From Actinopolymorpha cephalotaxi (GTDB taxonomy: Bacteria; Actinomycetota; Actinomycetes; Propionibacteriales; Actinopolymorphaceae), in contig NZ_JACBZA010000001.1 in the NCBI RefSeq assembly GCF_013408535.1, positions 1,634,850-1,698,849 of the forward strand: a stretch of 64,000 bases of DNA, read 5' to 3'. Both the position numbers and the translations under genes were made by a program. Shown here piece by piece: positions 42,486 to 51,868 of the stretch. The notes beneath the pieces are model-generated. The model saw nothing but the letters and a program-made list of their open reading frames with translations, was not told the origin of the DNA and did no database searches. Position 1 is the stretch's first letter. The number at the start of each line of letters is the position of its first letter.

Positions 42486-42728
42486 CCTGCCGCAACAAAG
42501 ACACTGTGCGTGCGACATTCTTCACAGAAAATCACCAAAGTTCGCCGCTGCCCGGATTCTGTCCCGTTGACGGCGGTCGCCGACCCGCCGCCCCCGGCGC
42601 TGACTGCACCCCGGCGATCGGCGTCGGCCGGGAGTGTCGGTGGTCACCGCAAGACTGGCGCCATGGCAGTACGTGGGTGTCACGCGAGGCTCCGCGCCAC
42701 CTCGCCCGGGCGAACGCACCGGGTCCGG

Positions 42729-42757
42729 TTGACGGCGACGGCCCGGTGGGTTAACTT
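42729..42757 (+). promoter_or_regulatory. Strong sigma-70-type promoter, LexA-controlled
   Basis: TTGACG (42729-42734), a 17-nt spacer and TAACTT (42752-42757) form the best canonical promoter in this region; the start should lie near 42764. The LexA box follows immediately. Confidence 0.75.
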
Positions 42758-42763
42758 CTCTCG

Positions 42764-43034
42764 TAGGTCGAACGTATGTTCGAGCTGCCGATTCGGGGGA
42801 GCCGAGCGATCTCCCGAGTCGGTTCGCGAAGTCCGACGGGGGTGGCTCGTCCCTGCCCCCGCTGGATCGCCGTTGACCCCGGGCGGGACGCGCAGGGGCA
42901 GGGGAAAGCGTCCCGCCCGGTTCGGCGGCAGGCGAGCTCGGCGGCTCATCGGCGCCGGTGCCGACGGGCAGCACGCAGGCTCCGTCCCGGCCACGGCCGG
43001 GGTGGGCGCTCCGAGGCAACGGAAGGGCTAACTC
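42764..43034 (+). other. Long structured 5' leader of the HEPN gene
   Basis: About 270 nt between the LexA-box promoter and ATG 43035. Two stable hairpins are visible: 42790-42800 pairing with 42810-42820 (11 pairs, one G-T wobble and one G-T), and 42879-42891 with 42908-42920 (13 perfect pairs, purine-rich 16-nt loop). No family domain is coded here. It could be a regulatory leader or a small RNA. Confidence 0.5.
42768..42783. promoter_or_regulatory. LexA (SOS) box
   Basis: TCGAACGTATGTTCGA is a perfect palindrome fitting the actinobacterial/Bacillus-type SOS consensus GAAC-N4-GTTC with symmetric TC/GA flanks. It covers about +4 to +19 of the promoter at 42729-42757, a repressing position. 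Confidence 0.8.
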
Positions 43035-43529
43035 ATGCGCACACAGTCGAGTCCGTCGTTCCAGGCTCCACTCGGGCCGAGCGTCTTCGAGGCGCTCGAC
43101 CGGGCCCGGGCGTCGCTGGCCGAGGCGCGGATGGCCGAGCTCGCGACCGAGCGCTACTCCGCCGCCCACATCGCCGCTCTGCGCACGGCGGCAGCCGTCC
43201 TGGCCGCGCGCACCGGGCCGGCCGTTCGCCGCGGTCGCCGCGACGCGTGGACACTGCTGGCCCGGGTCGCCCCGGAGCTCGCGGAGTGGGCGGCGTTCTT
43301 CGCCGCCGGAGCCGGCAAGCGCGCGGCGGCCGAGGCAGGACTCCCCAGAGCGGTGACCGACCGGGACGCCGACGATCTGGTCCGCGACGTCGAGCGCTTC
43401 ATCGCGGTGGTCGAGGCAATGCTGGAGCTGCCGCACCAGCCCTCGCTGCCGCATCAGTCCGACCCGGCCGACGGCGATCGCCTGGGCCGGACGGGCCTAC
43501 GGGTCCACGGCCCGGGGGCGGCCGCCTGA
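43035..43529 (+). CDS. SAV_6107-type HEPN domain protein
   Basis: 164 aa, mostly helical. SVFEALDRARASLAEARMAE, ERYSAAHIAALRTAAAVLAA and DADDLVRDVERFIAVVEAML follow the pattern of the SAV_6107 HEPN family found near the dcw cluster in many actinobacteria. HEPN domains often belong to RNases or nucleotide-binding proteins; I do not see a clear R-x4-6-H catalytic motif, so activity is uncertain. ATG 43035 has GGAAGGG upstream. Its nearest promoter carries a LexA box, suggesting damage induction. A hairpin at 43531-43563 follows, then the methyltransferase gene. Confidence 0.78.
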   Translation: MRTQSSPSFQAPLGPSVFEALDRARASLAEARMAELATERYSAAHIAALRTAAAVLAARTGPAVRRGRRDAWTLLARVAPELAEWAAFFAAGAGKRAAAEAGLPRAVTDRDADDLVRDVERFIAVVEAMLELPHQPSLPHQSDPADGDRLGRTGLRVHGPGAAA

Positions 43530-43639: not shown

Positions 43640-44449
43640 GTGCCCGAGCGCAGCCTGGACGTCGAAGGTGGCGCCGCTCACCGGGCCGCCGACTCCCTCA
43701 GCGGTTCGGCGCCCGGACGCCGCCGGTCGCTTCGGGACGAGGTGCTCGGACGCCTGGTCCGAGCAGCCCTCGACGACCAGGTGGCCAAGTCCGGCCGGTC
43801 TGCCCTCCGGGTGGTCGACGCCGGCGGCGGCACCGGGCACCTCGCGGTCCCGATCGCGCGCATGGGCCACCAGGTGACTGTCGTCGATCCGAGCCCCGAC
43901 TCCCTGGCCGCGCTCGAACGCCGGGCCGCGGAGGCGCGCGTCACCGAAAGAGTCCAGGCGGTGCAGGGCGACGCGGTGGGCCTGCGGGACCTTCTCGGCG
44001 AGGAGACCACCGACCTGGTGCTCTGCCACAGCGTGCTGGAAGTGGTCGACGATCCGCAGGTGGCCGTGCACGAGATGGCGCGTGTGCTGCGGCCCGGGGG
44101 AGCGCTCAGCCTGGTGGCGGCCAACCGCTACGCCGCAGTGCTGGCCAAGGTCCTGGGCGGCCACCTCGACCAGGCGCGGGCGGCACTCGACGCCGCCGAC
44201 GACCCGGTGGAGGCCGGCCCGACGCCGCGCCGCTTCACTCCCGAGCAACTACGCGATCTCGCCGAGAACGCCGGACTCGCGGTGGTCGATGAACGCGGCG
44301 TGAGGGTCTTCGCCGATCTGCTGCCGGCCGGCCTGGCCGACGAGCCCGGGGCGACGGCCGCCCTGCTCGACCTGGAGTCACAGGCCTCGGCACATCCGAA
44401 GTTTCGCGCCCTGTCCGCCCAGCTCCACCTGCTCGCCCGCAGGCAGTGA
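43640..44449 (+). CDS. SAM-dependent methyltransferase (SmtA/CmoA-like)
   Basis: 269 aa. Motif I is LRVVDAGGGTGHLAVPIARM, motif II VTVVDPSPDSLAALERRA, then QAVQGDAVGL, DLVLCHSVLEVVDDPQVAVH and RVLRPGGALSLVAANRY, a complete class I SAM fold. A C-terminal extension (RRFTPEQLRDLAENAGLAVV to LHLLARRQ) resembles SmtA-like enzymes. The acceptor is unknown. GTG 43640 has GGAGG 8-9 nt upstream. It follows the HEPN gene by 110 nt with a possible promoter of its own. Confidence 0.85.
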   Translation: MPERSLDVEGGAAHRAADSLSGSAPGRRRSLRDEVLGRLVRAALDDQVAKSGRSALRVVDAGGGTGHLAVPIARMGHQVTVVDPSPDSLAALERRAAEARVTERVQAVQGDAVGLRDLLGEETTDLVLCHSVLEVVDDPQVAVHEMARVLRPGGALSLVAANRYAAVLAKVLGGHLDQARAALDAADDPVEAGPTPRRFTPEQLRDLAENAGLAVVDERGVRVFADLLPAGLADEPGATAALLDLESQASAHPKFRALSAQLHLLARRQ

Positions 44450-44665: not shown

Positions 44666-45136
44666 GTGCCTCTCTCTGACCACGAGCAGCGACTGCTCGA
44701 GCAGATGGAGCGGGCCCTTGCCGCCGAGGACCCGAAGTTGGCCTCGGCGTTGCGGGGGGTCGATCTGCGCACGCGTCAACGTCGGCGTGCCGTGATCGGA
44801 GCCGCCGTCTTCGTCGTCGGCATGGTGTTGATGCTGGGCGGCGCGATCATGATGACCACCCGCCAGAGCTCGGGCTTCGTCGCGGTGAGCGTGCTCGGCT
44901 TCCTGGTCATGCTGGTCTCCGCCTATTACGTCGCGACCAGCCTGCGGCACATGCCCGCGGCCGGTGAGACGACCAAGGTGGTGCCGCTTCGCGGGCGCGG
45001 ACAGCGACCACGCGGCGGCCAGGCGAAGCCGAGCGGACAGGCGAAGCCGAAGGCCCGCCGCCCCAAGCCCAGCGGCACCTTCATGCAGCGCGTCGAAGAA
45101 CGCTGGCGGCGCCGCCGCGAAACCGGCGGGTACTGA
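44666..45136 (+). CDS. DUF3040 family membrane protein
   Basis: 156 aa. PLSDHEQRLLEQMERALAAEDPKLASALRG is the DUF3040 signature, followed by two hydrophobic segments (VIGAAVFVVGMVLMLGGAIMM and GFVAVSVLGFLVMLVSAYYVA) and a Lys/Arg/Gly-rich basic tail. Function unknown; it is a conserved neighbour of the actinobacterial dcw cluster. GTG 44666 has GGAGG 4-5 nt upstream. The 248-nt gap that follows, up to the convergent transglutaminase gene, shows no feature. Confidence 0.9.
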   Translation: MPLSDHEQRLLEQMERALAAEDPKLASALRGVDLRTRQRRRAVIGAAVFVVGMVLMLGGAIMMTTRQSSGFVAVSVLGFLVMLVSAYYVATSLRHMPAAGETTKVVPLRGRGQRPRGGQAKPSGQAKPKARRPKPSGTFMQRVEERWRRRRETGGY

Positions 45137-51623: not shown

Positions 51624-51868
51624 CGTTCCGCCCCGTCGGCACACCCGTCGGCACACGTCGATACACCCCGTCACATGCCCCGTCCACCGGCGCTTCCGGT
51701 GGGCAGTCCATCCGATCGAGCAAGCAGTGGTCGTGCGGTGAGGTCTCCAGCCCGCTCCCTGCGCCTTCTGACGCACCTTCCCCGGCGCCAGACGGCGGTT
51801 TCCCCAGCGAGCGGGCGGGGACCTGGCCGCATGGCGACGACACGCAGCAGCACGCAGTGGGGGTCGAG

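Follow-up and report, generated by a model that had tools for sequence, protein, structure and literature searches.

A LexA-boxed SAV_6107-type HEPN gene with a structured leader and its possible place in actinobacterial translesion synthesis

In the genome analysed here, as in most of the loci surveyed, the gene for a SAV_6107-type HEPN protein lies behind a perfect LexA (SOS) box, and in many relatives it is accompanied by genes for translesion polymerases. Taking the explanation as a whole, we regard it as reasonably probable that this gene is repressed by LexA, that its product is a non-catalytic accessory of translesion synthesis and that the structured leader of its mRNA serves as a second gate.

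The promoter and its LexA box

The window, by which we mean the whole stretch of 64,000 nucleotides analysed, corresponds to positions 1634850-1698849 of contig C1 in a genome of 6.86 Mb, and the features of the HEPN locus are collected in Table 1. The preliminary description of this DNA had proposed a promoter TTGACG-17-TAACTT with an SOS box at about +4, and, as the first coding gene downstream, a HEPN gene followed by that of a methyltransferase; both the promoter elements and the box are present, and the two products match PF18726 and PF08241, respectively. For the full 16-mer TCGAACGTATGTTCGA, allowing up to 3 mismatches, 0.10 sites are expected per window, and a single site was found, matched on both strands. 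The epithet "strong" holds for the promoter only in part, since its elements are kept in 8/8 genomes of the family, in the arrangement TTGACG, 17-18 nt, TAnnnT and then a perfect box 8-10 nt on, but TAACTT agrees with TATAAT at only 3/6 positions and a consensus promoter scan of the window did not call it. Because the promoter-to-box spacing is conserved in all eight genomes, LexA would cover the first transcribed bases, and repression of the HEPN promoter by this occupancy is the step of the mechanism which conservation strongly supports. As the presence of the box would suggest, DNA damage would lead to RecA-dependent cleavage of LexA and hence to release of the promoter.

Table 1. Features of the HEPN locus (positions in the window)
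Feature	Position	Strand	Basis and remarks
Promoter	42729..42757	+	TTGACG 42729-42734, 17 nt, TAACTT 42752-42757
LexA (SOS) box TCGAACGTATGTTCGA	42768..42783	+	at about +4; 12/12 match to TCGAACNNNNGTTCGA
5' leader, structured RNA, 251 nt	42784..43034	+	fold of 42760-43034
Leader hairpin, A-like, loop CUCGUCC	42831..42867	+	MFE fold
Leader hairpin, B type, 13-bp stem, loop GCAGGGGCAGGGGAAA	42879..42920	+	fold, covariation
HEPN_SAV_6107 gene, 164 aa	43035..43529	+	PF18726, E 2.5e-34
Class I SAM methyltransferase gene	43640..44449	+	PF08241, E 3.9e-20; part of the cassette at many related loci
DUF3040 gene, SCO2097-family morphological protein	44666..45136	+	PF11239; NF058603 136.7 bits, cut-off 110

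A survey of SAV_6107 loci for conserved boxes, which had been proposed as a check, gave a strongly positive answer. It covered 180 HEPN loci, re-annotated with profiles, namely the window, 49 named records, 40 close relatives, 60 loci from a class survey (in which the HEPN_SAV_6107 family is present in 247/394 genomes) and 30 from further genera; box counts refer to 178 of these, two with less than 300 bp upstream being left out. Within 1600 bp upstream of the HEPN domain the best box was perfect (12/12) at 141 loci, matched 11/12 at 25, 10/12 at 7 and 9/12 at 5. The 180 loci include duplicates (e.g. L061, from Actinopolymorpha rutila, the closest named relative found, with 98% at the HEPN protein, and L143), which clustering at 90% removes, and with one locus per cluster a perfect box remains in 103/137. 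The 141 perfect boxes fall in 0.279 Mb of upstream DNA as against 7 in the 1.30 Mb that make up the remainder of the same loci, a 94-fold difference in density. So far as conservation in sequence can tell, it thus holds that the promoter of a HEPN gene adjoining the division cluster carries an operator of the LexA type. At eight loci (L077, L078, L222, L223, L225, L228, L230 and L236) HEPN is preceded by a pair of 11/12 boxes at a distance of 40 bp from each other, an arrangement that looks like a double operator.

In the Corynebacterium-like genus, where HEPN is present in 60/61 genomes, the sites are degenerate and mostly lie at -200 to -300; among 30 loci the best upstream site matched 12/12 in 1, 11 in 10, 10 in 9, 9 in 9 and 8 in 1, and a downstream control of 44 kb from these loci held no site of 11 or more. 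The order of genes in this genus, HEPN - DUF3040 - gap - mraZ, fits that of cg2381 to cg2378 (mraZ) in C. glutamicum, which suggests, by synteny only, that cg2381 is probably the counterpart of HEPN. This gene, a conserved hypothetical of unknown function, belongs to the LexA regulon and is induced by ciprofloxacin with an M-value of 3.86, equal to that of recA, and in the accessible part of the report it is not named as a HEPN (PMC5055667). The view that the arrangement is little described stands insofar as SAV_6107 is rare in the open-licence literature, but has to be qualified insofar as a probable counterpart already figures, in that part of the same report, as a LexA-regulon gene (PMC5055667).

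Genome-wide, 9 perfect TCGAACNNNNGTTCGA sites were found in the 6.86 Mb as against 1 in a backwards control. Four of the perfect boxes other than that of the window adjoin known SOS-type genes; one lies between lexA and the gene for a LysM protein, one in front of a radical-SAM gene, one in front of imuA' (NF058630) and one ahead of an imuB-like gene with dnaE2 behind it, such that the genome possesses a separate LexA-boxed imuA'-imuB-dnaE2 row away from the window locus. The remaining four (L190, L191, L193 and L195) are found in the vicinity of a gene resembling those of membrane mannosyltransferases and of genes that match no Pfam family.

Neighbouring genes and the mutasomes

The window locus contains no polymerase, ImuA' or ImuB and is thus not itself a DnaE2 mutasome operon; the conserved row of genes ends there with the DUF3040 gene. 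Similarly, in the window's genus the genes for HEPN, methyltransferase and DUF3040 retain the SOS promoter, and neither linked polymerases nor DUF6504 were seen. The fullest order found in relatives is box - DUF6504 - HEPN - DnaE - methyltransferase - DinB - DUF3040, with DinB (PF00817) in many of them following HEPN at 1-5 kb, in the same direction. At the 46 loci in which DnaE is the gene matched next, a median of 15 nt separates the HEPN stop from the first matched residue of DnaE. Altogether, DnaE2 or DinB is co-directional downstream in 66/113 representative loci, and no linked polymerase is seen in 47/113, many of these stretches being short owing to contig or stretch ends; the latter figure implies that the link between HEPN and polymerase is not obligatory. 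On the side of the division cluster, an mraW RNA (RF01746) was matched in the window at 51725-51844, between mraZ and mraW, with 50.2 against a gathering score of 50. The window methyltransferase scores 111.2 bits against CmoM, below the cut-off of 366, and matches the PADLOC model mad2 with E 4.2e-18. At three Nocardioides-like loci HEPN and the methyltransferase are separated by an Endonuclease I (PF04231) with DUF6359 (L154:4459-5730, L164:4642-5892, L166:6560-7747), behind which lies a second perfect LexA box.

The DnaE proteins of the cassette form, in a midpoint-rooted FastTree phylogeny of 52 sequences drawn without support values, one group apart from both the DnaE1 pair of the genome analysed here and the ImuA'-linked DnaE2. 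Their catalytic aspartates are preserved, the differences being confined to the PHP motif; a loss of catalytic residues, as an earlier and too strict pattern had indicated, is ruled out by the presence of these aspartates. The cassette DnaE of locus L072 scores 592.8 bits against the error-prone-polymerase model, whose cut-off is 939, as compared with 1430.2 for the DnaE2 of the genome analysed here. The genome of the window encodes, besides DnaE1 and the imu-linked DnaE2, a third DnaE (L321:2654-6211; G000:C1:453500-463500), which clusters with DnaE1; the stretch analysed around it contains no box matching at 11 or more of the 12 positions.

A second kind of neighbourhood is found in families f21 and f40, in which HEPN directly precedes imuA' in at least 17 genomes; at one locus, L235, family models give the order HEPN - ImuA' - IMS-family (ImuB-like) - DnaE2, and ImuA' was also confirmed at another, L206. 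Genomes in which HEPN is linked to DUF6504 and DnaE almost lack ImuA', which is present in 1/26 of them as against 23/32 others, and among close relatives in 2/7 as against 33/34, these being raw counts which ignore kinship and judge presence from an E-value gap. The first two of these counts cover 26 of 27 and 32 of 33 genomes, G196 and G206 being left out; in G076, which was counted among the genomes with the cassette, some 7.9 kb lie between HEPN and DnaE. ImuB is present in 46/57 relative genomes, and the 11 without it are the same 11 that are without ImuA'. HEPN being linked to DUF6504 and DnaE in some genomes and to the imuA' row in others, it stands beside two alternative types of mutasome, and it is because the gene is co-directional with both DnaE2-type and Y-family genes, in both types, that we propose the protein as an accessory of translesion synthesis.

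Neither system has, in what we could consult, been connected with this protein. The ImuA'-ImuB-DnaE2 mutasome, known for example from mycobacteria, resembles the present loci in the SOS box in front and, in f21 and f40, in the adjacency of HEPN to imuA', and differs in that the window locus is devoid of its three components and that neither HEPN nor the methyltransferase is described, in the sources available to us, as part of it; the main text of a paper on the mycobacterial mutasome contains no mention of HEPN (PMC10421592). A computational survey of polymerases predicts DnaE2-[ImuB-C]-PolY-RecA and DnaE2-[ImuB-C] modules only in Actinobacteria, in genomes without ImuA and ImuB (PMC12926913, NAR 2026), and its DnaE2B-[ImuB-C]-PolY-RecA and DnaE2B-[ImuB-C] modules are probably identical with the relatives' DUF6504-HEPN-DnaE-methyltransferase-DinB cassette, with which they share a small beta protein, a divergent DnaE2, an intact Y-family polymerase and the general lack of ImuA'; HEPN, the methyltransferase and LexA are, by contrast, absent from the main text of that survey. 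Variant DnaE2/Y-family operons without imuA had, according to the part of the report at hand, been described already by the predecessor of this survey in 2019 (PMC6511836). The LexA regulon of S. venezuelae takes in dnaE2-dinP, where again LexA is bound at the promoter from which a DnaE2 and a Y-family gene are expressed, and the accessible part of that study leaves HEPN unmentioned (PMC9380542). Four Streptomyces-like loci of our own survey (L075, L201, L202 and L250) contain HEPN behind a best box of only 9/12. Within the portions of the open-licence literature that were accessible, no link of SAV_6107 HEPN to SOS mutagenesis was found, nor was any mention of DUF6504 found in the open-licence literature.

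As regards DUF6504 itself, it is probably the ImuB-C of the 2026 polymerase survey. Its model is all-beta, and in a global alignment its W..WW pattern is in register with that of the ImuB C-terminal domain. A profile comparison of the two domains was not significant, and when DUF6504 was compared with known structures none matched with a Z higher than 5.9. The possibility that the window leader is the scar of a DUF6504 gene was rejected, no trace being found in the window and weak ones only in two relatives (G003 and G005); there, the longer leaders (L142 and L144) contain DUF6504-like stretches (E 0.0007 and 0.00016 in a tiny search set) which are possibly a decayed gene.

One question then is whether the operator concerns HEPN at all, or whether it serves the polymerase genes while HEPN and the methyltransferase are carried along or perform an unrelated task, for example in connection with the division cluster. 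In accord with this, the neighbourhood is conserved, with DUF3040 followed by the division cluster at its mraZ end, and the Streptomyces-like loci keep HEPN without a good box. We nevertheless consider it unlikely that HEPN is such a passenger, as the box is retained where no polymerase is linked, not only in the 8/8 genomes of the window family but also, at 11/12 or better, in 7/7 representatives that have none of DnaE2, methyltransferase, DinB and DUF3040 downstream although at least 7 kb are available, and as HEPN is associated with two different types of mutasome.

The HEPN protein

The AlphaFold2 model (41 sequences, pLDDT 85.6) predicts a six-helix HEPN bundle, whose nearest structures are 2hsb (Z 15.2, rmsd 2.3, 117 aligned), 3o10 (Z 13.2) and 1ufb (Z 13.0); the PF18726 match and the similarity to 2hsb place the protein in the HEPN superfamily with its four-helix-type bundle. 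A sequence search of solved structures reached at best E 0.16, and Foldseek alone, queried with the model, returned nothing with E below 0.001. Among 138 representatives the most conserved residues are W72 (100%), R50, P80 and F122 (99% each), W85 (97%), F89 (96%) and R96 (93%).

In catalytic HEPN RNases the R-x4-6-H motif sits in the C-terminal helices. No such motif was found in the C-terminal helices of the present family, in which H45 is the only histidine conserved in more than 60% of the 138 representatives. The preliminary description had pointed to HEPN proteins as being often stress or defence RNases, and a corresponding explanation would make the present one a ribonuclease, toxin or defence effector induced in the SOS response, which slows growth or aborts phage infection during repair. 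The fold is indeed shared with toxin HEPNs (8yuf, Z 9.8; 8xdj, Z 9.6), an R-x4-H (R40, H45) occurs in 104/138 representatives and there is a weak PADLOC match to the phage-defence candidate model PDC-M05B (E 9.4e-6, 23.9 bits). The R-x4-H, however, opens helix 2, away from its usual C-terminal place; the gene is a stable, single-copy chromosomal one, situated by polymerase and division genes, with no antitoxin partner seen, and in the window the HEPN gene adjoins no MNT nucleotidyltransferase antitoxin such as a HEPN-MNT pair would include, its neighbours being instead the MFS, methyltransferase and DUF3040 genes. Moreover, in the relevant part of a survey of HEPN families, SAV_6107 (HEPN-M) is listed as "No" where other families are "mostly conserved", an entry that we read as referring to the catalytic motif, and no association is given for it (PMC3710099). 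We therefore consider an RNase or toxin rather improbable and, given also that the frequent neighbours at related loci are translesion polymerases, depart in this respect from the earlier suggestion. The family and the fold are those of the HEPN-M group, which the survey, as far as the same part shows, lists only as actinobacterial, so that SOS control and the links to polymerases would be new to it (PMC3710099).

A non-catalytic adaptor is, we infer, the better assumption. The HEPN product may be envisaged as a small helical accessory, acting as an adaptor, a loader or a restraint of SOS translesion synthesis, which would help or hold in check the DnaE2/Y-family machine.

The leader RNA and the SOS response

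The fold of 42760-43034 has a z-score of -2.30, and 4/200 shuffled sequences were as stable. Four outer pairs added to the stem of the 42879-42920 hairpin make 17 pairs, which in an alignment of seven genomes are all paired, 8 of them having changed on both sides, as compared with at most 50.4% paired when the same alignment is slid by 1-3 columns. A model of this hairpin gives one strong match, the HEPN leader, in each of the seven genomes from which it was built, and nothing above 38.2 bits elsewhere in 57 genomes.

Across families two hairpins recur. They were counted in 125 cluster representatives whose box matches 11/12 or better and whose leader has 60 bp or more. Of these leaders, 39 contain hairpin A (loop TCGACCY), as against 0 in antisense and 0.1 in shuffled controls; hairpin B (loop GGGGAAR) is present in 35 (antisense 2, shuffled 0.15) or, under a looser stem rule, in 40 (antisense 3, shuffled 0.2). 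One or the other is present in 68 leaders and both in 6. The stems of hairpin B (16 sequences) are 96.4% paired with 11/12 pairs changed on both sides, and those of hairpin A (14 sequences) 95.8% with 9/11, against at most 48.9% and 63.6%, respectively, on sliding, these pair counts being inflated insofar as the alignments (A4, A5) were chosen by loop and pairing. Run on 100 loci (1.04 Mb), the hairpin-B model reached an E below 0.1 at 35 places, every one of them a HEPN leader read in the sense direction; 16 of these sequences had served to build the model. In the window, the loop CUCGUCC resembles the hairpin A loop CUCGACC of other families and does not match the exact pattern, while the hairpin at 42879-42920 matches the cross-family hairpin-B model weakly (23.8 bits, E 0.15). 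Comparison of the leaders with Rfam 15 yielded none at the gathering score and only sub-threshold matches at E up to 10. The covariation supports the view that the leader structure is real.

Both loops have potential partners downstream: CTTCCCC follows GGGGAAG within 75 nt in 11/46 leaders (upstream 0, shuffled 0.2), and GGGTCG follows TCGACCC within 75 nt in 17/51 (upstream 0, shuffled 3.0). These complements suggest H-type pseudoknots, which such leaders would probably form; inspection by eye found no downstream CTTCCCC in the window flank. A structured leader of this kind may restrain translation or elongation or set their timing, and would in this way probably constitute a second, post-transcriptional gate behind LexA.

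Actinobacterial terminators can lack a U run, and many of the leaders have stems of 10 pairs or more, stable hairpins that could stop the transcript. The SOS promoter might on this account give mostly a short RNA, the hairpins being terminators or attenuators and HEPN being expressed from elsewhere or after antitermination. This appears to us distinctly improbable, for invariant loops and their downstream complements would be superfluous in a terminator, and no U-tract terminator (hairpin and T run) was found in the window leader. Finally, the box could be a chance palindrome, GAACNNNNGTTC alone having an expectation of 0.65 per window, or could serve an MFS gene that diverges upstream of it (start at 42518) as operator. 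This is so improbable as to be in practice refuted by the 94-fold enrichment upstream of HEPN in the 178-locus survey, by the conservation in all eight family genomes and by the fact that the upstream neighbour varies among loci while HEPN or DUF6504 stays beside the box.

The preferred reading of a LexA-repressed translesion accessory can be extended, tentatively and with rather more doubt than assurance, to the proposition that SAV_6107 HEPN is a constituent, as yet without a name, of SOS mutagenesis in Actinobacteria, shared by the ImuA'-ImuB-DnaE2 machine and the DUF6504(ImuB-C-like)-DnaE2B-DinB machine alike, and that its LexA-controlled mRNA carries a new pseudoknotted leader in which the invariant loops CUCGACCC and GGGGAAG together with their downstream complements gate expression again. 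Since mutagenesis by DnaE2 machines after damage is a route to adaptation whose accessory factors are incompletely known, an SOS-boxed HEPN beside both types of mutasome is a direct and testable candidate for a subunit or regulator, and it occurs in genera that are safe to handle. If an SOS operon had a structured leader, control after transcription would come into a response for which LexA is the level mostly described. The family, known chiefly as a HEPN without an active site, would also gain a concrete pathway, and the protein seems to have been overlooked as a contributor to the way in which these bacteria deal with DNA damage or mutate under it.
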